Shown here: piece by piece, positions 2,935 through 21,550 of the stretch | Layout: every line of letters starts with the position of its first letter | How positions within the stretch are numbered: the stretch's first letter is position 1 | DNA from: a virus | Length of the DNA stretch: 21,550 bases | Direction: 5' to 3' (one strand) | Virus record (IMG/VR): IMGVR_UViG_3300047553_000019 | Coordinates: 1-21,550 of that record | Program-made: the position numbers and the translations under genes | The notes under the pieces: model-generated | Database searches by the model: none | The model's input: only the letters and a program-made list of their open reading frames with translations | What the model was told of the DNA's origin: nothing

Positions 2935-3318
2935 CTATTGTAATTGACTAAATTGTAAAATGATTATAAATATTAACATCAGCTTACTTGCTGCGCGTAC
3001 TTTGTCTATTTTTCTTTGATTTTGCTCGAAATCTTGGTATAAAGATTTGTTAATTGAGTACTTATATTTCCAATTATAGAAGCTATCTTTTTCAATAGTT
3101 CTAACGCTGAGTAAAGAGTCATTCTTTTTAAGTTTTAATTGTAAATTATTTATAGAGTCATGATATGACCTATAAAGATTATTGATTGTATCAGCTTGTC
3201 CTATGGTTATAATCACCACAGAATCCTGACCTATCTTCTTAGTTTTTGGGTATTGCGAGAATGTTAAAGTTGGTACCAGTATCAACACCAACGCTATCAA
3301 GCTTAATCTTAACTTCAT
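2935..3318 (-). CDS. Exported protein with C-terminal membrane helix, spanin-like topology (127 aa)
   Basis: Residues 1-22 form a signal peptide (basic MKLRL, a hydrophobic core, then LTFSQ as the likely cleavage region). A polar periplasmic stretch with predicted helices follows (NNLYRSYHDSINNLQLKLKK and beyond), and a hydrophobic helix ends the protein (KLMLIFIIILQF, about 112-124). Two anchors around a periplasmic rod resemble a unimolecular spanin, which joins inner and outer membranes in lysis, but no lipobox Cys is present, so the outer-membrane anchor would have to differ. The first 80 bases, which encode the signal peptide, overlap the end of the 110-aa gene in another frame. Function is inferred from topology and position only. 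Confidence 0.6.
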   Translation of the reverse strand: MKLRLSLIALVLILVPTLTFSQYPKTKKIGQDSVVIITIGQADTINNLYRSYHDSINNLQLKLKKNDSLLSVRTIEKDSFYNWKYKYSINKSLYQDFEQNQRKIDKVRAASKLMLIFIIILQFSQLQ

Positions 3319-3571
3319 TTAATTCTGTTTTTAGGGCTATAGTCTCTTGTTTCAGTTCAGTTACCTTACTAACGGTTTGCGTTACTATTGCCTCTTTGGC
3401 TTTATCTGCTTTTACTTGAACTTCCTTGTTCTTAGACAAGGTTTGATGAAACTCATCTAATAACTTTTGTAGTTCCTTGTCTTCTTTTGGAGACTGATCT
3501 GGTTTGTCGGTTACCTTGTGACCAACTACTAAAACACCAGATAATAAGAAAATTAAGAAGGTAGCTTTCAT
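3239..3571 (-). CDS. Exported or anchored coiled-coil protein (110 aa)
   Basis: A hydrophobic N-terminus (residues 4-17, FLIFLLSGVLVVGH) is followed by a charged region rich in Lys, Glu and Gln that is predicted to be a long helix or coiled coil (about 28-92). There is no lipobox Cys. The N-terminal anchor plus periplasmic coiled coil is the layout of an inner-membrane spanin, and the next gene overlaps its 3' end by 80 bases, as in nested Rz/Rz1 pairs. The start overlaps the last base of the 101-aa gene (TAATG). The family is not recognised, so the spanin idea rests on topology and gene order. Confidence 0.6.
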   Translation of the reverse strand: MKATFLIFLLSGVLVVGHKVTDKPDQSPKEDKELQKLLDEFHQTLSKNKEVQVKADKAKEAIVTQTVSKVTELKQETIALKTELNEVKIKLDSVGVDTGTNFNILAIPKN

Positions 3572-3876
3572 TATTTAACTGACTTTTTAATTGCCCCTAA
3601 AGCATCTAAAGTCTCGAGCTTAGTCGTAGTCGATGAAAGGGCTGTTTTACATTCTATTAACGCCTGAGTTTTTAAGCTATCTCTAAACTCAAGATTCTTG
3701 ATTCTGTATTCCTGGTCGTCTATTCTACTATTGAAATTACTCCTAATATCTACATATAATGCAGAGATTCCTACAATAACTAGGAATAGAGTTCCCACAA
3801 TGGGATTTTTAGCGAAATCTTTAAAGCTAATCGGAAGAGGATTAGCACTCACATTTAAGCCTTTTTTCGGAGCCAT
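3571..3876 (-). CDS. Membrane protein with single span and coiled coil (101 aa)
   Basis: A 25-residue N-terminal part (MAPKKGLNVSANPLP...) precedes one hydrophobic span (about 26-44, IVGTLFLVIVGISALYV) and a helical, charged tail (SRIDDQEYRIKNLEFRDSLK) that probably forms a short coiled coil. It lies between the 198-aa membrane protein (3-base gap) and the 110-aa exported protein (1-base overlap), within the lysis part of the operon. I do not recognise the family; a role in lysis or membrane assembly is an inference from position. Confidence 0.65.
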   Translation of the reverse strand: MAPKKGLNVSANPLPISFKDFAKNPIVGTLFLVIVGISALYVDIRSNFNSRIDDQEYRIKNLEFRDSLKTQALIECKTALSSTTTKLETLDALGAIKKSVK

Positions 3877-3879
3877 CTT

Positions 3880-4476
3880 TTATTTTTTACCAATTTTAAG
3901 GTAGAAGCTACCTGAGTAGCCAATACCACCTGTTTTATATAAATCTAAACTAAGCCCCATTAGAGCCTTATTTTTGGTATTTAGCATCAAAGAAGGACTT
4001 ACTACTTGTAAGCCATTAAGTGGTCTAAAATCGCCTCTAAAGCCCAAATAAATGGTATTCTTAGGTTTCTCTACATAAAGTTGCTTGGTAATGATGGTTT
4101 TTTCAGTCAAATTAGCCATAAAAGACCTAGAAAGTATCTTATTTTGGCTTATAGTGTCTGTAATCACAAAAGTATTACTATCTTTTTTAATAGTATCTAC
4201 ATACGCCTTAACTGCAAAATAGTCGTTTAAGACTTTAACTGTGTCATGTATAATATGTTCCACAGTATCGGTTAAAATGATATACGATTGTATATCTTTT
4301 CCTTGTTTGTATTTAACCAAAGTTTTTTCCTGGAAAACTGTGTCATGAATTTCTGCAACTTTTTTATAGTTGCTGAGATTTTTAGGACTTCTTACATAGG
4401 TAGCATCCTTAAAAAACAATAGCCATAATACGATTAATACTATGGCTACCAATAAAATGTCCTTAATTCGGATCAT
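3880..4476 (-). CDS. N-terminally anchored periplasmic protein with beta-rich C-terminus (198 aa)
   Basis: An N-terminal membrane helix (about 6-22, ILLVAIVLIVLWLLFF) is followed by a long polar region with repeated D-T-V/I motifs (HDTVFQEK, LTDTVEHIIHDTVKV, ITDTIS) and a final section of alternating residues (TIYLGFRGDFRP, GLSLDLYKTGGIGYSG, FYLKIGKK) that looks like several antiparallel beta strands. The strands resemble the last part of an outer-membrane barrel. The start overlaps the stop of the 46-aa gene (TAATG). A bridging role between membranes is possible in this neighbourhood, but no family is recognised. Confidence 0.65.
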   Translation of the reverse strand: MIRIKDILLVAIVLIVLWLLFFKDATYVRSPKNLSNYKKVAEIHDTVFQEKTLVKYKQGKDIQSYIILTDTVEHIIHDTVKVLNDYFAVKAYVDTIKKDSNTFVITDTISQNKILSRSFMANLTEKTIITKQLYVEKPKNTIYLGFRGDFRPLNGLQVVSPSLMLNTKNKALMGLSLDLYKTGGIGYSGSFYLKIGKK

Positions 4477-4647: not shown

Positions 4648-4989
4648 TTATATAGTTGGGTTATTAAAAGGTAAAGGTAAAACGATAATTGGAGGATTGA
4701 TTATGTTTTCAATTTGATTAGCTAAACCTAAATCAATAGAAGCTACATCTAAACCAGCATCTAACCAGCCACAAACTTGCTCATAAGTTAAGTCTGGGTA
4801 AGCAGTAAAGTCTGTTGCACTTGGAGTAGCACAACCCATTGTTCCGTAAGAAGAAACTAAAATAGGTTCTCCGCCTACATATTGTTCAGCTTCTCTTGTC
4901 CAATGTACAGTTACTACTACATCAGTTAAACCATCTTCTGTTGGCTTAGTGTCCATTTGGTTTATAATCCATTTGTAAGTTATACTCAT
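4648..4989 (-). CDS. Fiber-adjacent phage protein of unknown function (113 aa)
   Basis: The sequence MSITYKWIINQMDTKPTEDGLTDVVVTVHW, followed by a short beta-rich core (GEPILVSSYGTMGC), then DFTAYPDLTYEQVCGWLDAGLD and a Pro-rich hydrophobic tail (NPPIIVLPLPF), matches a widespread group of small phage proteins that I recall encoded beside tail fibers in many phages, including marine ones (I believe catalogued as DUF7936). In those the pattern ITY.W.I..L......G..DVV..VHW and P.L.....v.gW is shared. Start and stop of neighbouring fiber overlap by 4 bases (ATGA). A role in fiber or tail assembly is plausible from position. The family function is not known to me. Confidence 0.7.
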   Translation of the reverse strand: MSITYKWIINQMDTKPTEDGLTDVVVTVHWTREAEQYVGGEPILVSSYGTMGCATPSATDFTAYPDLTYEQVCGWLDAGLDVASIDLGLANQIENIINPPIIVLPLPFNNPTI

Positions 4990-7900
4990 TTTATTTTAGC
5001 TTTTAATTCTTCAATTTGTAATTGTTGCTCTTGAATTGCTTTGACTAAAGCTGCAATTATTGGTCTATCTGTTAAACCTATAAATTTATCTTCTCCTTCT
5101 CCAGATTCTACATAGGCTTGTGGTATAAACTCTTTTACTTGTTGAGCAATAAATCCTAATTCTTTATCAGTATCATCTGAATCAAATTTCATTCTATACA
5201 AAGTAGGCTTTATTCCCATTATTGCATTTAACCCAATTGTGGAATCTTCTAAATCTTTCTTTTTATTAATGTCTGAAGTAGCAGTATAAGCACCAGAGGA
5301 AGCGTTTATTGATGCAATATTACCAACACCATCATTGTATAGTATTGCATTAGTGTTCCCATACCAACCAAAAATATTTGTACTTGCTCTATTTGCAAAT
5401 CCTAAAAATGAAGAGCCACCCAATGAAACAATTTCTTTATAAACTTGTAAAGAACCTGCTCCTGAAATTGCATTAACTGAAGTTCCCCCAATTAACACTA
5501 CACCCCCATTTGTAATACGCATTCTTTCGGTAGCACTTGTTCCAAATCTTACATCAGAACCATTAATCATAATAGGTTGATAGCTTCCATACAATGAGTT
5601 GTCAGTTCCATGTATTGTAGACATACCAGAACTAAAAGCACCTCCGTTATCTATTCTTATTCCATAGGAAGCTCCAGAAAACCCACCAGTACCTTGTCCT
5701 GCACCTACTGTTTGAAATACAGTAACTGGACTACTTGTACCAATTCCTACATTACCAGCGTTAGTAATATTAAATGTGTTTACAAAAATTGAACCATTGA
5801 ATTGCCAAAATGATAGTTTACCTACTGCTTGTTGTATTGTAGTAAACGAACTACCACCACCTTGAAGATATATAAATGGTGCTCCAGATGCTTGGTTTGT
5901 ATCGCTTGCAGTACCAGTTAAATTTAAAGGACCAGTAAATCTACCAGTACCAGTAACATCTAATTTATAAGTATCGTTAGTGTTACCTATTGAGAAATTA
6001 CCGCTTGTATTTAATCTCATTTTCTCAGTCCAGCTTCCACCTCCAGCAGTACCAGTTAAGAATCTAACATCACTACCAGATAAAGCTAATGTTCTAATTC
6101 CAGTTGTAGGACCATAAGAAACTATTTCAGATGTTGTGCTACCATCACTATTTAAGTTAAAGCCTAAACTTGATGTAGTAGTTTTATAAATCTGAACATT
6201 ACCAAAGAAGTTATTGTTTCCGTAAATATCATATTGATAACGAATATTACCTTGTCCGTCTGCTAAAATAATATTATTAGAAGTTGCTGGGTCAAGTCCA
6301 GTTACTCTACCTATGATTGTATTATAAGAACCAGTTGTTACCCCAGATGCATAAGTTGTACCAGTTACATATCTATTAGCTATGTCTATATTATTAGAGC
6401 CAGTAGTTATTCCAAATCCAGCACCATTACCATAAAATATATTTTGTGAGCCAGTTGTTACATCTCTACCAGATGCCCAACCTACTGCCGTGTTATAATT
6501 ACCAGTAGTTAAATAATATAAAGCACTTGAACCAATACCAGTATTAGCTGCTCCAGTTGTAGCATTCATTAAGACGCTATCTCCCAAAGCAAGGCTACTA
6601 TTTGCAGTTCCAGCACCAGCCCATAATCTATTTGAACCTGCTACTGTTAAATAATTAGATCCTAAATTTACATTACTTGTTGCACCAGTATATGGCACAT
6701 AGCCACTTAAAGAAGGAATATCGCTTGTTAAGGCTAAAGTTCCATTTGCATCTGGCATTACATAAGTTCTTGGACTTGTTGTAGAAACTATTGAACCATC
6801 AAATGTGAAATTTCTACCATCATTCGAAAAGTAAAAAGTAACTGTATTCCCAAATCCAGCATACATTGAAGTATAAGCTGCTCCAGTCCATAAACTATGC
6901 CCACTTGCTTGTCGCATATTAACTGCTCCAGCAAATCCTCCAGATGCTTCAACATTTAATCCTCCTCCAGTTAAAGTCCAACCACCTAAATTTACATTTG
7001 TAGTTGCTCCATTATAAGGAACATATCCGCTTAAAGCAGAACCATAGTTAGGAATATTGAAAACTCCAGTTGTTGAGTTATAAGTTGCCGCACCACTTGT
7101 GCCAGTTGTCGTTAAGCTAATTGCACTTCTTGAACGAGCATCTGTATAATAAAGATTAGTTCCTTCTGCTATGTTTGTAGTTGTACCAGCACTATTAACC
7201 CATAATCCAGTTGCAGATTTATATTGTAAAATATCATTGTTAGCCAATGAAGTAAACAACACATCTGAACACTCTTTTAATTCTTGTGTATTTTGAATCT
7301 TAACCAAGATTGAGCCGTTGCCACCACTTACCTTAACTACATATCCAATCAATACTAAGTGTGCTGGACTAACTGGCTTTACATTCGTAAATTGACCAGC
7401 AGTTTCACTAAGCCAAAGAATATCCCCAGCCGTATAACCAGTAGTATTTAATCCGTTTACATTACCGCTAATTGTAATAAATCCGTTTGAGCCGTTTGTG
7501 ATAGTTTCAGTAACCACTCCTAAAGTAGCAGCTGAAGTAGTTTCGCTTGATGCGTCAGCTAAAGCAACAGTAGGTAGGTTACCAGTTGAACCATTAATAT
7601 AAACTACTTGACCATCTGTTAAAGTTGAGCCAGTATTATTATGAATTAAAACTACTTCCTCTTGACCTACTTGTAAAGTTGTCGCACCAGTTCCAGTAAT
7701 TACTTTTGGAGTTAAATAAGTATCATCCCAAGACAAAGTACCTACGCTTGTAGGAGTTCCAGTTGGAGTTGTATCTAACCCTAAGTAACCTCCGCTTAAT
7801 CCGTATTCGCCTAAGTTTACATTAGATGTAGCACCAGTGTAAGGCACAAACCCTGTCAATGAAGGGAAAGTAGTTAATCCACCAGCTCCGTTAATATATT

Positions 7901-8372
7901 GACCACTTGTACCAGCAAATCCTATATTTATAGTTCCGCTTGTTGTGATAGGGGAACCAGTTATTGTTAATGCATCACCACTTTCAGTTATTGCAACGCT
8001 AGTTACAGTTCCAGTAGAACCACCTGCTTTTTGCCATATTGTACCAGAGTAGATTACTTGGTCTCCTACTGCAAAAGTGATTGCACCAGCACCGAAGTTT
8101 GTAGTACCAGCAACATTACATAAATAAACATCTCCTTGATTACCAGTTCCGTTAGCTAAAGTAGGAGTATTAGTAGCTGCGTTCCAAGTTCCTTTATACT
8201 CCATTACGGAGTTAGGCAACTGAGATACTAAGATTTTAGCATTGCTATCAAGCTTTGGAATACCATTAGCCACATTTATGCCTAATGCTCCAACCACTCC
8301 ACTTGTACCTGTTAAAACACCTTCTAAATTCCTTACTTTAGCTCCACCTGTTATTTGTAATTGATTCGACAT
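4986..8372 (-). CDS. Tail fiber/spike with C-terminal S74 intramolecular chaperone (1128 aa)
   Basis: A long, Gly/Thr/Ser-rich, low-charge protein typical of trimeric fibers. Three copies of VPYTGATxNVNLG lie at about 175-188, 450-463 and 558-571. Residues 603-705 hold repeats of the form TTGxxNTxxGxxA, like the beta-roll of YadA-type heads. The end (about 1030-1128) is a peptidase S74 chaperone of endosialidase: TSDINKKKDL, then GLNAIMGIKPTLYRM, ELGFIAQQV and a final helix (ALVKAIQEQQLQIEELKAK). By analogy with the family, the chaperone directs trimer folding and cuts itself off at the TS-D site near S1033. It should bind the host surface. The gene overlaps the 113-aa gene by 4 bases. Confidence 0.92.
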   Translation of the reverse strand: MSNQLQITGGAKVRNLEGVLTGTSGVVGALGINVANGIPKLDSNAKILVSQLPNSVMEYKGTWNAATNTPTLANGTGNQGDVYLCNVAGTTNFGAGAITFAVGDQVIYSGTIWQKAGGSTGTVTSVAITESGDALTITGSPITTSGTINIGFAGTSGQYINGAGGLTTFPSLTGFVPYTGATSNVNLGEYGLSGGYLGLDTTPTGTPTSVGTLSWDDTYLTPKVITGTGATTLQVGQEEVVLIHNNTGSTLTDGQVVYINGSTGNLPTVALADASSETTSAATLGVVTETITNGSNGFITISGNVNGLNTTGYTAGDILWLSETAGQFTNVKPVSPAHLVLIGYVVKVSGGNGSILVKIQNTQELKECSDVLFTSLANNDILQYKSATGLWVNSAGTTTNIAEGTNLYYTDARSRSAISLTTTGTSGAATYNSTTGVFNIPNYGSALSGYVPYNGATTNVNLGGWTLTGGGLNVEASGGFAGAVNMRQASGHSLWTGAAYTSMYAGFGNTVTFYFSNDGRNFTFDGSIVSTTSPRTYVMPDANGTLALTSDIPSLSGYVPYTGATSNVNLGSNYLTVAGSNRLWAGAGTANSSLALGDSVLMNATTGAANTGIGSSALYYLTTGNYNTAVGWASGRDVTTGSQNIFYGNGAGFGITTGSNNIDIANRYVTGTTYASGVTTGSYNTIIGRVTGLDPATSNNIILADGQGNIRYQYDIYGNNNFFGNVQIYKTTTSSLGFNLNSDGSTTSEIVSYGPTTGIRTLALSGSDVRFLTGTAGGGSWTEKMRLNTSGNFSIGNTNDTYKLDVTGTGRFTGPLNLTGTASDTNQASGAPFIYLQGGGSSFTTIQQAVGKLSFWQFNGSIFVNTFNITNAGNVGIGTSSPVTVFQTVGAGQGTGGFSGASYGIRIDNGGAFSSGMSTIHGTDNSLYGSYQPIMINGSDVRFGTSATERMRITNGGVVLIGGTSVNAISGAGSLQVYKEIVSLGGSSFLGFANRASTNIFGWYGNTNAILYNDGVGNIASINASSGAYTATSDINKKKDLEDSTIGLNAIMGIKPTLYRMKFDSDDTDKELGFIAQQVKEFIPQAYVESGEGEDKFIGLTDRPIIAALVKAIQEQQLQIEELKAKIK
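6660..7850 (-). repeat. Three dispersed coding repeats in the fiber gene
   Basis: Copies of the 14-residue module (F/Y)VPY(T/N)GAT(S/T)NVNLG are encoded at about 7850-7809, 7025-6984 and 6701-6660. Each probably marks the border between a shaft segment and the next domain, and gives places where homologous recombination could swap segments. Confidence 0.75.
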
Positions 8373-9573: not shown

Positions 9574-11517
9574 TTAGAAAGTTGTTTTTTGTAATGTGTA
9601 TTTATTTACTTTAGTACAAGTTATTTCAGTATTTGAAATTTGTAACAAAGTTGCATTTGTTTGGTCGGATGGGTAATTAACTGTGCTATTACCAATCATA
9701 TAAGACTTATTGCTAATATTTATTACAGCAGGATCATTGTCTTGTGCAAATAATAACTTAGAAGCATCTAATATTGGGTAACTGGTATTTGCTGTATAAA
9801 AGCTAGTCAAATCACAATCAACATTGATAATGTTTTGACCATAAGTGTTTACATATTGCTGAATCAATAGCTCAGGCAAACTCAAGAAACTATCAGTTTC
9901 AAATAAACCATATCTGTACCATTGAGTAGCGATAGACTTGTCACTCAATAATAAAGCACCCTTAGCTGATGGGTAATAAGAATCATATCCACCAACGCCA
10001 TATGGAAACTCTATTTTGTGTACATATTGCTCATTCTCTATTATAGATCCAGAAAGCTCATAACTAGCTATTTTAGACTTAATTTTAAGCACAAAATTAG
10101 TTAGGGTATTAAATGTACTAACGCCCTCACTAACCCTGTATTTGAAGCTTAAAGTGCCATTTACTAATGGAGGGAAAGGTTCTGTTTTTAAGTCTAATGT
10201 AAAGTCTTCTGCTGCTCCTGTAGTTTTAGGATTATAAACAGTATAAGATGTGCTACCAAGCTGCCATTTGCTTTGGTTATTCAAATAGTAAGTGGTAGTA
10301 CCATCCGTAATAGTCATATCTATAAAACCAATAGGTTGGTCAGTAGATGTAGCTCCTATTAAAATGTTTAAATTAAGGGCATCACCAGGAGTCACATTTG
10401 GTTGAGATGCAGCCTCTAATTCAACTGATGCTGTACCTGCTGGTCCACCTGGAGTTGTTACTAATTCAAAGTAGTAATAATCATATGTAGCATTGTATTG
10501 TAGTAAACAAGTTGCATCTCCTGTGGAATCTCTAGTCCAAAAAGTAGCCTCTGTTCCATCATTATCTCTTAAATCACCATTAGGCAGATAGTTTTCTGCT
10601 GGTACGACATTGCCTTCTGCTACAATTTTATAAAAACCTTTATTAATAATCTTTACCTGACTATTATTTATGAAGTATAAATTAGAGGTATTATTACAGT
10701 AGTATTGTATTACTGAAGATGTATTAATTTGATTGCCATCTCCATTATCAACTCTAGCACCAAGTGAAGTATATTCTGTATAATATGCATTAGTTTCTGC
10801 AAATTCATTTATTGCTATAATCCACCATTTGCCTTTAGCCTGAAACACTCTACAACCAAAAGATTTTGCAATATTTGATATTACATCTAAACAATTAGTA
10901 TAATTATATTCATCTTGTAAAAAGTTCCTATAATTCATATATGTTTGTGCAAACGGATCTCTCCAAGATGCATCACCTCTATCAGCCATACCAAGTGCAA
11001 AATAAGAGCACATTGTTATTAAATTCCTATCGTTCTTAAAATCAATTGAATTAAAGCAACGAAGCAATATATTTAATAATGAGTTAGTATCATTTACACC
11101 TAAATTACCAATATGCGGAGTAAATGGAATATCCTTTAACATACCTAATCCATCAGTAGCATTAAATGAAGCTATCTTTCTACCTGTTGAATACGATATT
11201 TGAACATTGTCATTAATTAAGAAACCAACCCAATTTATAACATTATTAATGTACATTTCTATGTACATAAATCTATCATCAATATCAGTAAAATCGATAA
11301 TGTCCGATAAGTTATCTGTAAAGTCTATACTAATGTCTAACTGAGAAGCTAATATAGGCTCATATGGATCGTCTGAGTTTGGTATATATTGTAAGCTTAC
11401 ATCAATGCCTTGCAAGGTTATAATGCTTCCAGTATAGCCTTCTTGCCACAATTTAAGCTCAACTAACTTGTCTGCTTTTGTGGCGTATGTTATAGAATAT
11501 TTTTGTCCGTATGCCAT
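9574..11517 (-). CDS. Tail-tip/baseplate hub-like protein (647 aa)
   Basis: It follows the tape measure, the usual position of distal tail and hub genes. Residues about 60-132 (SIDFTDNL, DRFMYIEMYINN, NWVGFLINDNVQISY, ASFNATDGLGMLKDIPF) look like a hub domain I associate with Bacteroidota siphophages. Residues 205-240 (TNCLDVISNIAKSFGCRVFQ, KGKWWIIAINEF) continue it. From about 305 to 480 there is a beta-rich, CBM-like section starting NYLPNGDLRDNDG. No lytic enzyme motif is visible. The product is predicted to close the tail tube and carry the tip protein and fiber. The start overlaps the tape measure stop (TAATG). The family name is not certain. Confidence 0.75.
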   Translation of the reverse strand: MAYGQKYSITYATKADKLVELKLWQEGYTGSIITLQGIDVSLQYIPNSDDPYEPILASQLDISIDFTDNLSDIIDFTDIDDRFMYIEMYINNVINWVGFLINDNVQISYSTGRKIASFNATDGLGMLKDIPFTPHIGNLGVNDTNSLLNILLRCFNSIDFKNDRNLITMCSYFALGMADRGDASWRDPFAQTYMNYRNFLQDEYNYTNCLDVISNIAKSFGCRVFQAKGKWWIIAINEFAETNAYYTEYTSLGARVDNGDGNQINTSSVIQYYCNNTSNLYFINNSQVKIINKGFYKIVAEGNVVPAENYLPNGDLRDNDGTEATFWTRDSTGDATCLLQYNATYDYYYFELVTTPGGPAGTASVELEAASQPNVTPGDALNLNILIGATSTDQPIGFIDMTITDGTTTYYLNNQSKWQLGSTSYTVYNPKTTGAAEDFTLDLKTEPFPPLVNGTLSFKYRVSEGVSTFNTLTNFVLKIKSKIASYELSGSIIENEQYVHKIEFPYGVGGYDSYYPSAKGALLLSDKSIATQWYRYGLFETDSFLSLPELLIQQYVNTYGQNIINVDCDLTSFYTANTSYPILDASKLLFAQDNDPAVINISNKSYMIGNSTVNYPSDQTNATLLQISNTEITCTKVNKYTLQKTTF

Positions 11518-13655
11518 TATCCTCTTCTAAGGGTTAAAGATTTTTCACTTCTGTTTAAAGCCAATACAAGGTCTTGTCCTCTAAGTACAAACTGACCACT
11601 TCCTCCTCCACCAATCATATCTTTCAGTTTATCTAAAGGAGCAACTACTTCAGGGTTTGATTTAGCACCTGGATATTCACCCATTAAACCATATGTAGGA
11701 CCAGATATGATACCACCATTTGCAAACTTTTTAACTCCATCACCTGAAGGAGCACCTTCTGACATTGATGATATTCTAGCTTTTAAGAAAGAACCTACAG
11801 CTACTAAGGCAACACCTGCTGCAATAGCTGCATATGGATTACTAAATGCTTTTTTAAACGCATCCATAGCAACACCATAAGCAATTAACGCCTTACCAAT
11901 TGCAGATAATCCATTTGCTAAAATATCTAAAAATGCTCCAAATGGATCAAATTTACCTCCAGCTAAAGCTTTACCTATATTCTCTCCTAAAGTAGATAAA
12001 GCATCACCAAGCATACCTGATACGATACCGCTAATTTGTTTAGCAGTTGAATCAAAAGTATCACCCAAAGCCTCAATAGCTGCTTCTGAATTTCTGATTT
12101 CTTTATCTATTCTTGATAAGTCTACTCCAGTTCCGTCTTCAATAGCCTTTGCTCTTAATTGCTTTAACTGCTCAATATACTGCTCGTAGTCTGAAATCTG
12201 TCTTCTGATCCAACCTTTATCTAATTTAAGTCTTACTTCATTAGCTTTTTTAGCTGCATCAATATCATCATTTAAAAATCTTTGATTAATTCCTAATAAC
12301 GCATCAGCAATCTTTTTTCTACCGTCTGCAATTAAATCTGCTTCAGCTTGTAATAACTTACCTTCCTCTTCTCCTAATTTAGCTTGAACCTTAAGCGTTT
12401 CATCTGCCAACCATTTAGCAGAATTTAAAATATCTTGATCTCTTTTTAGTCTTATATTCTTTATAAACTCAGCACTTTTGCCTTCTGCTTGAGCTTGTCT
12501 AATATCTAAATCAGCTTGTCTTTTTATTATCTCTTGCTCATAGGATGCAAACATTATAATGTTATCCTTATAATATTGCTGTTGTGCTCTCAATAACGCA
12601 ATAGAATTATCTTCTATTTTTGTTTTTCCCTTCTTCCCTTCTTCTTTAAAATCTTTTAATTTCTGTTCTGCAGTGATATTATCATCTAATATTTTTAGAT
12701 ATTTTTCTTTCTCTACATTAAGAATCTTTTGCTCTTGCTCTATACCAGTTAAAATATCTTCAGACTTTTTCATTGCACCAAGCAACATTGGGAACTGAAT
12801 CATTGCTGTTGGAAGGTCATTTATAGTCTTGCCTAATCTTTGAGTAAAAGACATTTGGTCAAGAGTAAGAGCTTTAACCTCTTTATATGCTTTAATTTCT
12901 CTGGCTTGTTGTTGAGTCTTAGCCTTATCTCTTCTAGTGTCAATATCAAATTGCTTAATAGCTAATTCATCTAAAGCTTTACCTGCTGCTTTAGCCATAG
13001 CATATTGCCATAATACTTGATTTAATTGCTTATATGCTGTTTCAGCTTTACCTAATGCAATTTCTTCTTCTGAGTAAACTTTTAATAATCCAGGATATTC
13101 ATCTTTTAAAGCTTTTGCAGCTAATATCCTTTCTTGCATTGGTCTATTAGCATCTGTTGCTACTCTATATAAGGACTGCATTTCTGTAGCCTGATTAGAA
13201 TACATAGTTGCAGCTTCTTTAGAAAAATCTGTATTTAATTTGATTGCATTACCAAATTTTATTAAACCAGAATCTATAGCAGTAAACAATGCAATAATAG
13301 CAGATGCAGCTAAGTATATAGGACCAGTTAAAGCAGCGAAACCTCCAACTAATGCTGGCAAGTTGTTCTGAATACCTCTAAATCCGTATGGTAAATCCTG
13401 AATAACTAATGCAAGATTTGTCCATTGCTGATTAGTTTGTTTTAGGTTATTACCTGCTCTATTAGCTGCTGCTCCTGCTGAATTAAATGCTTTTTCAGAG
13501 TCGTTAAGGAGTTTAGTTGTTCTTCCTATTTTCCCATTAAATATCTCTACCTCTTTACCCAATACCTTAGATAAAGCATCGGACATGGCTTTTGCGTTCT
13601 TATTAAATATTTCTACATCTAGGTCGACCTTGACCTTTATAATTTCTTCTGCCAT
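11517..13655 (-). CDS. Tape measure protein (712 aa)
   Basis: The role is to set tail length and help DNA or protein pass the inner membrane. Supporting features are gene position after the chaperone pair, a Lys/Gln/Glu-rich helical middle (about 140-545), hydrophobic segments at about 98-128 and 578-625, and the C-terminal FANGGIISGPTYGLMGEYPG followed by EVVAPLDKL, a very common tape measure ending. At about 0.15 nm per residue, the usual rule for siphophages, the tail would be near 105 nm. The ATG lies one base after the stop of the frameshifted chaperone (TAATATG). The final 20 residues are basic (RSEKSLTLRRG). Confidence 0.92.
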   Translation of the reverse strand: MAEEIIKVKVDLDVEIFNKNAKAMSDALSKVLGKEVEIFNGKIGRTTKLLNDSEKAFNSAGAAANRAGNNLKQTNQQWTNLALVIQDLPYGFRGIQNNLPALVGGFAALTGPIYLAASAIIALFTAIDSGLIKFGNAIKLNTDFSKEAATMYSNQATEMQSLYRVATDANRPMQERILAAKALKDEYPGLLKVYSEEEIALGKAETAYKQLNQVLWQYAMAKAAGKALDELAIKQFDIDTRRDKAKTQQQAREIKAYKEVKALTLDQMSFTQRLGKTINDLPTAMIQFPMLLGAMKKSEDILTGIEQEQKILNVEKEKYLKILDDNITAEQKLKDFKEEGKKGKTKIEDNSIALLRAQQQYYKDNIIMFASYEQEIIKRQADLDIRQAQAEGKSAEFIKNIRLKRDQDILNSAKWLADETLKVQAKLGEEEGKLLQAEADLIADGRKKIADALLGINQRFLNDDIDAAKKANEVRLKLDKGWIRRQISDYEQYIEQLKQLRAKAIEDGTGVDLSRIDKEIRNSEAAIEALGDTFDSTAKQISGIVSGMLGDALSTLGENIGKALAGGKFDPFGAFLDILANGLSAIGKALIAYGVAMDAFKKAFSNPYAAIAAGVALVAVGSFLKARISSMSEGAPSGDGVKKFANGGIISGPTYGLMGEYPGAKSNPEVVAPLDKLKDMIGGGGSGQFVLRGQDLVLALNRSEKSLTLRRG

Positions 13656-13656
13656 A

Positions 13657-13944
13657 TTACTTTATGGGTTTAACATTTTCATATTTTTTAAGAACCTCTT
13701 TAAGCTCTTCTTGATCCATTACTCTTTGTTTCACAAAGTTACGATTATCGCAATCAAGTTCCATTAAGTCAGTAGGCTTTACTTTTTTGCCTTTAGGTAG
13801 TTGAACATTAATTAAAAGTGCAGTCTGCCATCTTGCTCTTAGCCATTCTTGCTCCTCTTTATGTCTATATCCATACCACACAAAATCTAACTCAGCCATC
13901 GTCATATCCCAAAACAAATGGGGAAGCACTTGGCACTCCCCCAT
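13657..13944 (-). CDS. T extension of the tail assembly chaperone (GT form read by -1 frameshift)
   Basis: This frame has an ATG at 13944 but is open further upstream to the A-run at 13983-13975, where it is in the -1 phase of the 123-aa chaperone gene. Read from the slip it continues KLEWIDIERYTMGECQVLP, then FWDMTMAELDFVWYGYRHKEEQEWLRARW. The pattern F-W-x-M-T-x-x-E-L-x-x-x-x-x-G-Y followed by a helix rich in Arg and Trp is that of the T segment of phage tail chaperones. The fused product would be about 228 residues (122 + 106). Independent translation from ATG 13944 is unlikely, because that codon lies in a 10-bp hairpin. The extension binds the tape measure and recruits tube subunits in lambda-like phages. 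Confidence 0.85.
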   Translation of the reverse strand: MGECQVLPHLFWDMTMAELDFVWYGYRHKEEQEWLRARWQTALLINVQLPKGKKVKPTDLMELDCDNRNFVKQRVMDQEELKEVLKKYENVKPIK

Positions 13945-13945
13945 T
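13917..13945 (-). other. Hairpin over the internal ATG, downstream of the slip site
   Basis: On the minus strand AATGGGGGAG (13945-13936) pairs with CTTCCCCATT (13926-13917) over 10 bp with one G-U pair and a 9-base loop. It begins about 30 bases after the slippery run and buries the ATG at 13944. The distance is longer than the usual 5-9 bases for a frameshift stimulator, so hiding the start may be the main effect. Confidence 0.65.
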
Positions 13946-13970
13946 GTATATCTTTCAATATCAATCCACT

Positions 13971-14342
13971 CTAATTTTTTTTTACTCCACTACCTTTTTG
14001 TTTCTTAGTTGGCGTATCTTCTATTCCACTTGTCATGCTTTCTGTTAAAGCTACTAAGACATCTTGGAATTTTTTACCAGATATTCCACCCATATCATCA
14101 ATCCAATCACACGCATCTAAATCAGTGAATTTAGGTGTTATGCCTTCTTTATACAAAGGGTATTCTGCTGCTGCTCTTAATAAATTGGCGATAGCATCTA
14201 ATGAATCTGGTCCATTTAATGCATCTCCAATATCGGCTGGTCCAATTTTTTGTAATTGACAAAACCTTTTTAAAGACCAAGTGCAAAATCTCAATTGTAC
14301 TTTTTCTCCAGAACTTAGTTCTAGTTCGTAGTGCCCTCTCAT
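13971..14342 (-). CDS. Tail assembly chaperone, short (G) form (123 aa)
   Basis: The protein lies between the tail tube gene and the tape measure, the place of gpG-type chaperones. It starts MRGHYELELSSGEKVQLRFC, a short beta region, then has helical parts with SLKRFCQLQK and DSLDAIANLLRAAAEY, and ends in a flexible basic tail (KKQKGSGVKKN). The last codons before TAG are AAA AAA AAT inside a run of nine A, so a share of ribosomes should shift into the T frame. Chaperones of this type coat the tape measure during tail assembly and are absent from the finished tail. The start is ATG 14342 with a leader rich in A and C. Confidence 0.85.
   Translation of the reverse strand: MRGHYELELSSGEKVQLRFCTWSLKRFCQLQKIGPADIGDALNGPDSLDAIANLLRAAAEYPLYKEGITPKFTDLDACDWIDDMGGISGKKFQDVLVALTESMTSGIEDTPTKKQKGSGVKKN
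13975..13983 (-). promoter_or_regulatory. Slippery A9 run for -1 frameshifting
   Basis: The message reads GTA AAA AAA AAT TAG in the zero frame, so a canonical A-AAA-AAA heptamer is in phase (13983-13977) just before the stop. In the -1 phase the frame is open through the stop to 13657. Confidence 0.85.
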
Positions 14343-14363: not shown

Positions 14364-14801
14364 TTAGTTAGTAGCCTGAGTCAATGCTCCTGTTCCAGTG
14401 AAAGATACTGAATAAGTTACTGGAGACTCCATGTCAGCAGTGATATCCATACTTTCAATGAAAGCTTGACCAGACCAGATTAAGTCACCTGTTACTGGAG
14501 TTGTTCCACTAACTGTAGTAAACTTAACTGTTACAGCAGTTCTATTTGCGATTGCAGTCATTAACTCACCTGTAGTGTAGTAAGAAGCTGTAGCAGCAGG
14601 ATCAACTGTAGCTAAACCATCTGTAGTCAAAGACCAAGATTTAACACCGCCAATATGATCTGTCCATCCACCGCTTTGTTTATCTGTGCTATCTGGTAAG
14701 TCTACAGAAAAGCTTAAAGAACAAGATGTAGCGTGTGCTACTACTTCTGTTCCAACTAATACAACCAATGAGGTTCCGTTAAATACACCTGTTGTTGCCA
14801 T
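14364..14801 (-). CDS. Major tail tube protein (145 aa)
   Basis: A small, beta-rich, low-charge protein starting MATTGVFNGTSLVVLVG, with TSCSLSFSVDL, GGVKSWSLTTDGLA, NRTAVTVKFTTVSG, GDLIWSGQAFIESMDITAD and TYSVSFTGTGALTQ. These are the strands of the TP901-1-type phage major tail protein, which stacks as rings to form the tail tube through which DNA passes. The length agrees with the family. It lies between the tail terminator and the chaperone pair, as expected. The leader AAAATAAAATAAAATG lacks a ribosome site in the E. coli sense, typical of this host group. The protein is expected to be one of the most abundant virion proteins. Confidence 0.88.
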   Translation of the reverse strand: MATTGVFNGTSLVVLVGTEVVAHATSCSLSFSVDLPDSTDKQSGGWTDHIGGVKSWSLTTDGLATVDPAATASYYTTGELMTAIANRTAVTVKFTTVSGTTPVTGDLIWSGQAFIESMDITADMESPVTYSVSFTGTGALTQATN

Positions 14802-19885: not shown

Positions 19886-21550
19886 TTATTTTGAAGGATC
19901 GTAAGCCCAGTTTTTTAATGATATATCTCTTTTAGAAGGACAGCCCATAGAAACTTCTGGTCCTTGCTCTGCACCTTTCATTCTACTCACAAAGCTAATT
20001 GTTCTATTAGCATCTTCTATATCGTTAGCAGTCCATTCTTCTTTTTTCTTAGAAAGCAATCTTAGGTTTCTTTCTATTGGACTTCTATCTAAAGATGCCT
20101 TCTTTGAGCATTCTGTTTTTGACCAAGCTTCCAACTCAGAGTAACTCATGTTAGTTACTTCCTTGTATTTGGCATAAACTTCATCCAACTTTTCACTCTT
20201 GCTCAAAAAAAAACCTTCACTTTTAACAGGAGGGATATTGTAATCACCTTGCTGTTGAGCATTGCGTGGATCTTGTAACATAGTCAACTCGTCAATAGGT
20301 AAGTAACCTGCAGGAATAAATATCTCATTCATTGTAGGACTTTCGATAGTCTCATAACGCATAGCCACACGCTTCTCGTTAGGAGTAATCCACCAAGATT
20401 GAGATAAGATACCACTCAACTCCTTCATGTCTTCTTGTAACTCTGGGAATACTGTTAAATCGAAATCGATGTAAGTATCTCTTCCCATTTCGTTACCGAA
20501 GAATCTATTCATCGCATCACGAATAGCCACTAACTCAGGAAGTACAACTTGCGTTAACATTTCCTTCTTAGCTTCCTTCATGTTGTTATAGGTCTTGTTA
20601 TCAGGATCGTTAAACAACGCTGAGTTTACTCCATACACATTACAAAGTTCTCTAAGAGTGATTTTCTCAGATTCTAACAACTGTAAATCTACAGGAGATA
20701 ATCCCATGTTCAACCAACCTAATTCCGCACCTGCTATTAATATTCTACCTGCATTCTGAACGATACCACCTTGAGTTTTAGTTCCGTACTGATTGTAGAA
20801 ATCTTCTTTTAACTTACCTGCTGCCTCTGGTCCGAAATCATTGTTGCCTTCTTTAGCATACAAAATACCTTTAGGACCTTGATTCTGCAACATACCAACA
20901 GATGTATCTTTTGCATCATTAGAACGCTGTACTGTTCTGTAGGCTGCTTGTAAAGGTGATAGTCCGTATAGCTGTTGTCCGTTAGTGTCAAAGTAAGGGT
21001 TGAAGTACTTAAGATGTATCACATCCTTCGCTGGTAAAGTATCCCATCCTACTAAAGTGAATGTGTACCCTTCAACCCCATTAATGGTACCATCAGAAAT
21101 GATACCCATATATTGGGATGGGAGACATACTAATTCTTGTACCTTGCCATTGGACAATCTGTTCGCCCAAACATAAGTGTTACCAGTAATTAGTTTATAC
21201 CCAATCATATTCTCGATTAATTCTGAGAAAGATTGGTATTCATTAGGTTGTTGTAACAAGTCATTCAGTGGAGAATCAGCTACCTCTTCTATTGCCTTAA
21301 CTCTAACAAGTTCTGCTTTTGCTAAGTCAGCAGTAGAGGAAGCGTTAGCAATCATAGATTTATACTGATTAAATGCTTTTTTGTTTTTAACGCTGTAAAC
21401 ATAGAAAGGAACAGTTGACACTGTCTTGGCTATTCTTTTAACGATAGCATATACTTCGCTGTTATTACAATAATCATTAACAAACTTCTTATCGTTAATA
21501 TCAGGATAAAGTATTCTACCCTTAATTAAACCTGCGAAGTCAGCTAGTGG
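19886..21550 (-). CDS. Portal protein, HK97 type, with extra C-terminal module (start outside window)
   Basis: The frame is open to the last base: 43 codons lie upstream of the GTG at 21421, so that GTG is not the true start. The visible portal core shows NDLLQQPNEYQSFSELIENM, YKLITGNTYVWANRL, VCLPSQYMGII, KDVIHLKYFNPYFD, QLYGLSPLQAAYRTVQ, GPKGILYAKEG, SEKITLRELCNVYGVNSALF and FDLTVFPELQEDM, as in HK97-type portals that form the DNA-packaging ring. After a linker with a T9 run (20213-20205), residues from about 425 (counted from 21421) form a separate module: EAWSKTECSKKASLDRSPIE, RNLRLLSKKKEEW, DANRTISFVSRMKG. That part is not portal-like. Terminase genes probably lie just beyond the edge. 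Confidence 0.93.
   Translation of the reverse strand, partial: PLADFAGLIKGRILYPDINDKKFVNDYCNNSEVYAIVKRIAKTVSTVPFYVYSVKNKKAFNQYKSMIANASSTADLAKAELVRVKAIEEVADSPLNDLLQQPNEYQSFSELIENMIGYKLITGNTYVWANRLSNGKVQELVCLPSQYMGIISDGTINGVEGYTFTLVGWDTLPAKDVIHLKYFNPYFDTNGQQLYGLSPLQAAYRTVQRSNDAKDTSVGMLQNQGPKGILYAKEGNNDFGPEAAGKLKEDFYNQYGTKTQGGIVQNAGRILIAGAELGWLNMGLSPVDLQLLESEKITLRELCNVYGVNSALFNDPDNKTYNNMKEAKKEMLTQVVLPELVAIRDAMNRFFGNEMGRDTYIDFDLTVFPELQEDMKELSGILSQSWWITPNEKRVAMRYETIESPTMNEIFIPAGYLPIDELTMLQDPRNAQQQGDYNIPPVKSEGFFLSKSEKLDEVYAKYKEVTNMSYSELEAWSKTECSKKASLDRSPIERNLRLLSKKKEEWTANDIEDANRTISFVSRMKGAEQGPEVSMGCPSKRDISLKNWAYDPSK

Follow-up and report, generated by a model that had tools for sequence, protein, structure and literature searches.

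A conserved A-run as a candidate RNA polymerase slippage site joining two putative tail assembly chaperone frames in Bacteroidota-type tailed phages

Among the textbook examples of ribosomal recoding is the tail assembly chaperone frameshift of the lambda type. The G/GT pair of phage lambda lies between the tail tube and tape measure genes and consists of two overlapping frames, from which a short and a fused product are made by a switch in the -1 direction on the slippery heptamer GGGAAAG. A set of tail assembly chaperone frameshifts of the lambda G/GT type was reportedly described by Xu, Hendrix and Duda in 2004. Structures that stimulate ribosomal frameshifting are usually found 5–9 nt downstream of the slippery site. 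A pair of products can also arise from one gene by transcriptional slippage. Runs of nine A's slip with high efficiency in bacteria, and the dnaX gene of T. thermophilus, with a run of nine, yields its product pair by added A's (PMC5009743). In C. rodentium tssM1, a poly-A run (A11) ahead of the stop gives a longer variant through transcriptional slippage, with 20–25% switching, and both forms are needed in a tail-like machine (PMC4256274). A change of shift direction among orthologues is regarded as a sign of transcriptional realignment (PMC3711429).

The locus described here appears to be the known lambda arrangement in variant form, with a long A-run that is most likely used by RNA polymerase and a conserved hairpin that covers the first internal start. 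It has the gene position, the overlapping frames, the -1 direction and the predicted short and fused products of lambda G/GT, but its site is a run of A9–A11 rather than a heptamer, the length of the run and not the phase of a heptamer is conserved, and the hairpin is 27 nt away. With dnaX it would share slippage of the polymerase on a run of nine and a product pair from one gene; the switched product of dnaX is the short one, however, whereas the locus studied here is a phage structural gene whose switched product is fused. The resemblance to C. rodentium tssM1 lies in the poly-A run before a stop and in a longer variant made by slippage, while tssM1 is a cellular secretion gene with a longer run, with no conserved hairpin found nearby and with an efficiency that was measured there. 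An annotated counterpart is the PHG11b_38/39 pair of Flavobacterium phage 11b, which together with its metagenomic relatives has a homologous gene pair, an A9 run and a -1 switch, but with another codon phase of the run, a stop a few codons later and different hairpins.

The minus strand of the window, a 21.5 kb IMG/VR virus record, encodes a structural module of a tailed phage, in the order probable portal, capsid (Pfam Phage_capsid, 1.6e-39), tail completion protein, tail tube, the two frames, probable tape measure and more tail genes. The tape measure assignment draws on the evidence in Table 1, on a further weak match to a tape measure PHROG and on a local DNA match to the corresponding gene of Riemerella phage RAP44; that phage shares a piece of the tape measure gene and has no annotated chaperone pair adjoining it. 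Two overlapping frames thus lie between a major tail protein and a tape measure gene, and the neighbours agree with the lambda G/GT position given in the initial annotation. Elsewhere in the window, a nine-T run on the coding strand (20205-20213) lies inside the probable portal gene (19886-21421) and is another possible slippage site. A long tail fibre-like protein (4986-8372) has a C-terminus that by eye resembles an S74-type intramolecular chaperone, and three small adjacent or overlapping genes (2935-3876; 127, 110 and 101 aa), which by eye have probable membrane or signal segments, are possibly lysis genes.

We infer from gene order and size that the two frames encode tail assembly chaperones, and their function is likewise read from gene order. 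Named chaperone families gave no sequence similarity above cut-off (Phage_TAC_6 reached E 0.081, below it), the tail protein family phrog_2115 was matched at E 0.0027 in some relatives only, the second protein has unnamed PHROG matches (phrog_16333, 2e-11), and a low-confidence AlphaFold model had no significant match to a named fold.

Table 1. Coordinates of the two frames, the switch site and neighbouring features in the window
Feature	Coordinates	Strand	Evidence
Major tail tube protein, upstream neighbour	14364..14801	-	Pfam Phage_tail_2, 3e-12; phrog_1407, 3.8e-26
Upstream frame, putative first tail assembly chaperone (G-like), 123 aa, ends VKKN	13971..14342	-	443 relatives confirmed in IMG/VR; place between tail tube and tape measure
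Slippery run, nine A (GTA AAA AAA AAT), candidate frame-switch site	13975..13983	-	A9/A10 in complete relatives
-1 frame segment, putative second chaperone domain (T-like), run to stop	13657..13977	-	462 relatives confirmed; coding signature ahead of first ATG
TAG stop, upstream frame	13971..13973	-	sequence
Conserved hairpin ACAAUGGGGGAGUGC-CAA-GUGCUUCCCCAU(U)UGU	13914..13947	-	15 pairs, one bulged U; 12 contiguous pairs from ATG
First in-frame ATG of second frame, in hairpin stem	13942..13944	-	sequence
Probable tape measure protein, downstream neighbour	11517..13655	-	length and place; phrog_30292, 9.5e-17 (unnamed)

Read on the minus strand, the upstream frame ends in GTA AAA AAA AAT TAG with nine A's, as first described, and the -1 frame is indeed open from the A9 run to its stop at 13659-13657. 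The heptamer A_AAA_AAA (13983-13977) is in phase as claimed; it does not stand directly before the stop, since one codon, AAT, separates it from TAG. Whether the frames are joined by stepping back one base or by adding one A, the computed product has 228 residues, the size predicted earlier. The ATG at 13944, taken in the initial annotation for the only internal one, is the first of five in frame, with the others at 13905, 13899, 13764 and 13719. The A9 run by itself proves nothing, because about 1.2 such runs are expected by chance on the minus strand of the window.

The comparison rests on two groups of relatives. Group 1, the close relatives, comprises 183 sequences with the same junction, the window included, and was drawn from at most 80 matches per scan, out of 28, 462 and 443 confirmed. 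Group 2 is a sister group that includes Flavobacterium phage 11b and numbers 78 loci in which the second frame is complete, 43 of them non-redundant; its second protein is about 25% identical to that of group 1. These relatives are not independent events, and their relatedness inflates all counts given below. In a search of cultured phages, neither protein had a match at E 0.01; at E 10, the Cellulophaga phages phi10:1 and phi39:1 surfaced as cultured relatives, and matches to APSE phages were disregarded as chance. A scan of bacterial genomes with the second protein found no match. When 395 Bacteroidia genomes were searched with HMMs, three matches were obtained. One Bacteroidia-class genome has a chaperone pair whose A9 occupies the same place in GC-rich surroundings (L273), and another has a pair with A_AAA_AAC (L274). 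A further locus (L275) was set aside because its upstream part resembles a fragment of another gene fused to the second frame.

The second frame evolves as an extension of the first, with coding constraint from the run onward in 113 group 1 and 56 group 2 sequences. Over the nine codons between the run and the first ATG in group 1, diversity in the -1 frame is 0.022 at the first codon position, 0.036 at the second and 0.180 at the third. In group 2, both other frames contain stops in 56 of 56 sequences over the 21 codons ahead of the first ATG, and the -1 frame contains none. Upstream of the run, the -1 frame is closed by varying stops, mostly within a few codons, and a separate start at a conserved position ahead of the -1 segment is absent from all close relatives. 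Phage phi10:1 has an ATG-ATG just 5' of its run, and this does not count against a join of the frames elsewhere. Because the -1 frame is constrained as coding sequence from the run onward and is without a conserved separate start, a programmed join of the two frames appears nearly certain. This constraint between the run and the first ATG also bears out the earlier proposal that the second part is made mainly by frame switching.

The initial annotation had pointed to related phages as the place to look for a conserved run, and the run is kept. Group 1 has A9 in 121 sequences, A10 in 60 and A8 in one aberrant contig (L148), which is the single exception among complete close relatives. A pattern scan that allowed at least seven A's returned A9 and A10 only in the 80 contigs read, one of them cut by the contig end. 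In group 2, the distinct sequences have A9 (68), A10 (24) or A11 (1), the shorter runs being cut by contig ends. A/T runs of at least nine occur elsewhere in the sequence of the relatives 12 times in 961 kb. All complete loci of both -1 groups, L148 excepted, therefore carry a length-conserved homopolymer of the kind known from slippage sites, about nine or more. All 226 Lys codons within the run are AAA, whereas elsewhere in the gene pair the count is 1216 AAA to 892 AAG. The position of the run relative to the codons varies, being 1+6+2 or 2+6+2 in group 1 and 0+9+0, 0+9+1, 1+6+2 or 1+9+1 in group 2, and in one locus (L191) an AAG on the 3' side is offset by a GTA on the 5' side so that the length is retained. 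Judged from these alignments, the A-run is under selection for length.

The hairpin downstream of the run is likewise conserved in group 1. It had been described as a 10-bp hairpin 30 bases downstream; the hairpin is present but longer, with 12 contiguous and 15 total pairs, and its first pair follows the end of the run at a distance of 27 nt, the ATG at 30 nt. Its folding score is z = -2.95, with 1 of 200 shuffles as good, and no Rfam family matches it. Among the 113 non-redundant sequences of group 1, the hairpin codons GGG GAG TGY CAA GTG CTT CCC CAT TTG TTT show synonymous variation only as TGC/TGT, while most flanking codons vary freely. The TGC/TGT change accompanies GTG/ATA on the opposite arm, so that a C-G and a U-G pair become two U-A pairs. 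There are 14 hairpin sequence types, two of them with a mismatched apex and two without the outermost pair. Since 11 of the 15 pairs never vary, the covariation count is only modest, being reached by 16 of 500 shuffles, and the synonymous silence is the stronger evidence for the hairpin. In group 2, the expected conservation of this hairpin does not hold. Different stem-loops occur elsewhere, a weaker one about 20 nt past the run and a large one 50–62 nt past it, and they show compensatory changes such as G-C to A-U. At some group 2 loci (for example L191:1498-1821), the large stem-loop about 60 nt past the run has 5' arm codons that differ by clade and a 3' arm with the same codons (EFQIR). 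A downstream structure is thus kept in both groups, but neither the same structure nor the usual stimulating distance.

The first in-frame ATG falls within the structure in both groups, in the stem in group 1, as the initial annotation had said of the ATG at 13944, and in the apex region in group 2. This placement fits a role of the hairpin in blocking independent starts. A transcription pause or partial terminator is a possibility for the group 1 hairpin. A terminator scan flags it as one of 4 such sites in a 2-kb stretch (1.0 expected); a terminator role was rejected in view of its short U-tract and of the lack of one in the sister hairpins. Our confidence in any one function of the hairpin is low.

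Under the main reading, to which we give a probability of about 0.6, RNA polymerase slippage on the A9 run is the main mechanism of the switch. Ordinary reading of the gene pair would give the 123-aa short chaperone. The polymerase would slip on the nine A's, so that part of the mRNAs gain one A or lose two, and ordinary translation of these altered mRNAs would pass from the first frame into the second. The run would therefore be a programmed frame-switch site yielding two proteins from one gene pair, with the 228-aa fusion as the minor product, and the fusion would act like lambda gpGT in linking tape measure and tail tube during assembly. We infer both the part of the polymerase and the ratio of the products.

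Four features of the run favour polymerase slippage. At least nine A's are kept though a ribosomal heptamer needs just seven, the codon phase of the run varies while its length does not, and runs of nine (PMC5009743) and of eleven (tssM, PMC4256274) slip efficiently in bacteria. The direction of the shift also differs among relatives, being -1 in groups 1 and 2 and, as computed from the A8 run, +1/-2 in phi10:1 and phi39:1. The direction is thus not fixed among orthologues, with few independent cases (two relatives). The homologous A8 junctions of these two Cellulophaga phages lie at about 4003-4010 (L188) and about 3941-3950 (L187). The A9 at the same place in the GC-rich context of L273 is a further point for the polymerase. 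Transcriptional slippage, offered in the initial annotation as an alternative, is accordingly preferred here over the heptamer shift on length, phase and direction; of the programmed -1 frameshift proposed there, the -1 join stands on conservation and coding constraint, and a lambda-type ribosomal shift is disfavoured on the same three properties of the run.

A suggestive hint comes from two contigs of neighbouring datasets, L148 and L149 (IMG/VR 3300012734_000187 and 3300012733_000129), which have A8 and A9 where the near-identical L127 has A10. These are the sole indels over 3.5 and 2.2 kb and fall only in the run, and both frames of L148 as assembled read straight through. The run is covered by 39 near-identical pairs, and none without L148 or L149 shows an indel there. 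If the datasets behind the two contigs are transcriptomes, the differences in run length would be slippage seen directly. L384, another contig of the same dataset, has a plain A9.

Several observations weigh on the other side. Ribosomal -1 frameshifting on A_AAA_AAA, as in lambda G/GT, stimulated by the hairpin from a distance or indirectly, is an unlikely but serious alternative: the in-phase heptamer is always present, so that ribosomes could do all of the switching, the gene position is that of lambda G/GT, and a strongly conserved downstream hairpin is more typical of ribosomal frameshifting. The Lys codons of the two frames may also hold part of the run in place. Distant relatives have classical heptamers, A_AAA_AAC in L274 and GAAAAAG in L272, which are ribosomal-type sites whose runs are too short for the polymerase to slip on; the wider gene family therefore includes ribosomal shifting. 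These sites, the plain A9 of L384 and the restriction of the other direction to two relatives all count against the polymerase. However, seven A's would be enough for the ribosome, yet at least nine are kept across codon phases, and the direction flips in the A8 relatives. The first pair of the hairpin, moreover, lies outside the usual 5–9 nt, and the sister clades have a different hairpin at other distances. The initial annotation had already noted that the hairpin is farther away than is usual for a stimulator, and at 27–30 nt from the run a stimulator role is not supported. The missing near stimulator lowers the standing of the site as a ribosomal frameshift, although some known sites need none.

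Slippage of polymerase and ribosome on the same run, with a length of 9–10 serving both, is rather improbable; the sequence permits both at once and the comparison excludes no mixture, but no evidence requires two mechanisms. Hardly credible, and already contradicted by the comparison of sequences, is the absence of any programmed switch, with re-initiation after TAG producing the second protein from a start of its own, at 13944 or a later ATG: an in-frame ATG does lie 26 nt past the stop, the annotators of phage 11b began the gene at an internal ATG and the annotated gene of phi10:1 begins just upstream of the run, but the -1 frame is constrained as coding sequence 5' of the ATG, back to the run, on which ground internal initiation is rejected as the main route, the ATG lies deep in the best-conserved section of the hairpin, and in group 2 the first in-frame ATG comes some 27 codons downstream, inside a conserved hairpin and with conserved coding sequence before it.

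Polymerase slippage on the A-run, the preferred reading, would have consequences beyond the window. Hundreds of related Bacteroidota-type phages retain the run. A large and mostly uncultured group of such tailed phages may make its chaperone pair through polymerase slippage, with a hairpin of each clade's own round the first internal start, outside the reach of the ribosome, so that the second domain is made only as a fusion; for this wider statement we see slightly less than an even chance. In phage 11b, the annotated start of PHG11b_39 (L335:1183-1437; NC_006356.2 18274-18528) is the internal ATG, about 27 conserved codons are missed and the second chaperone gene is annotated too short, as the second gene of the same pair probably is in other phages too. 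Frameshift predictors based on heptamers will misread these sites if the reading is correct. With the ratio set at transcription, the balance between the short and the fused chaperone would be open to control by the polymerase, by temperature or by phage factors.
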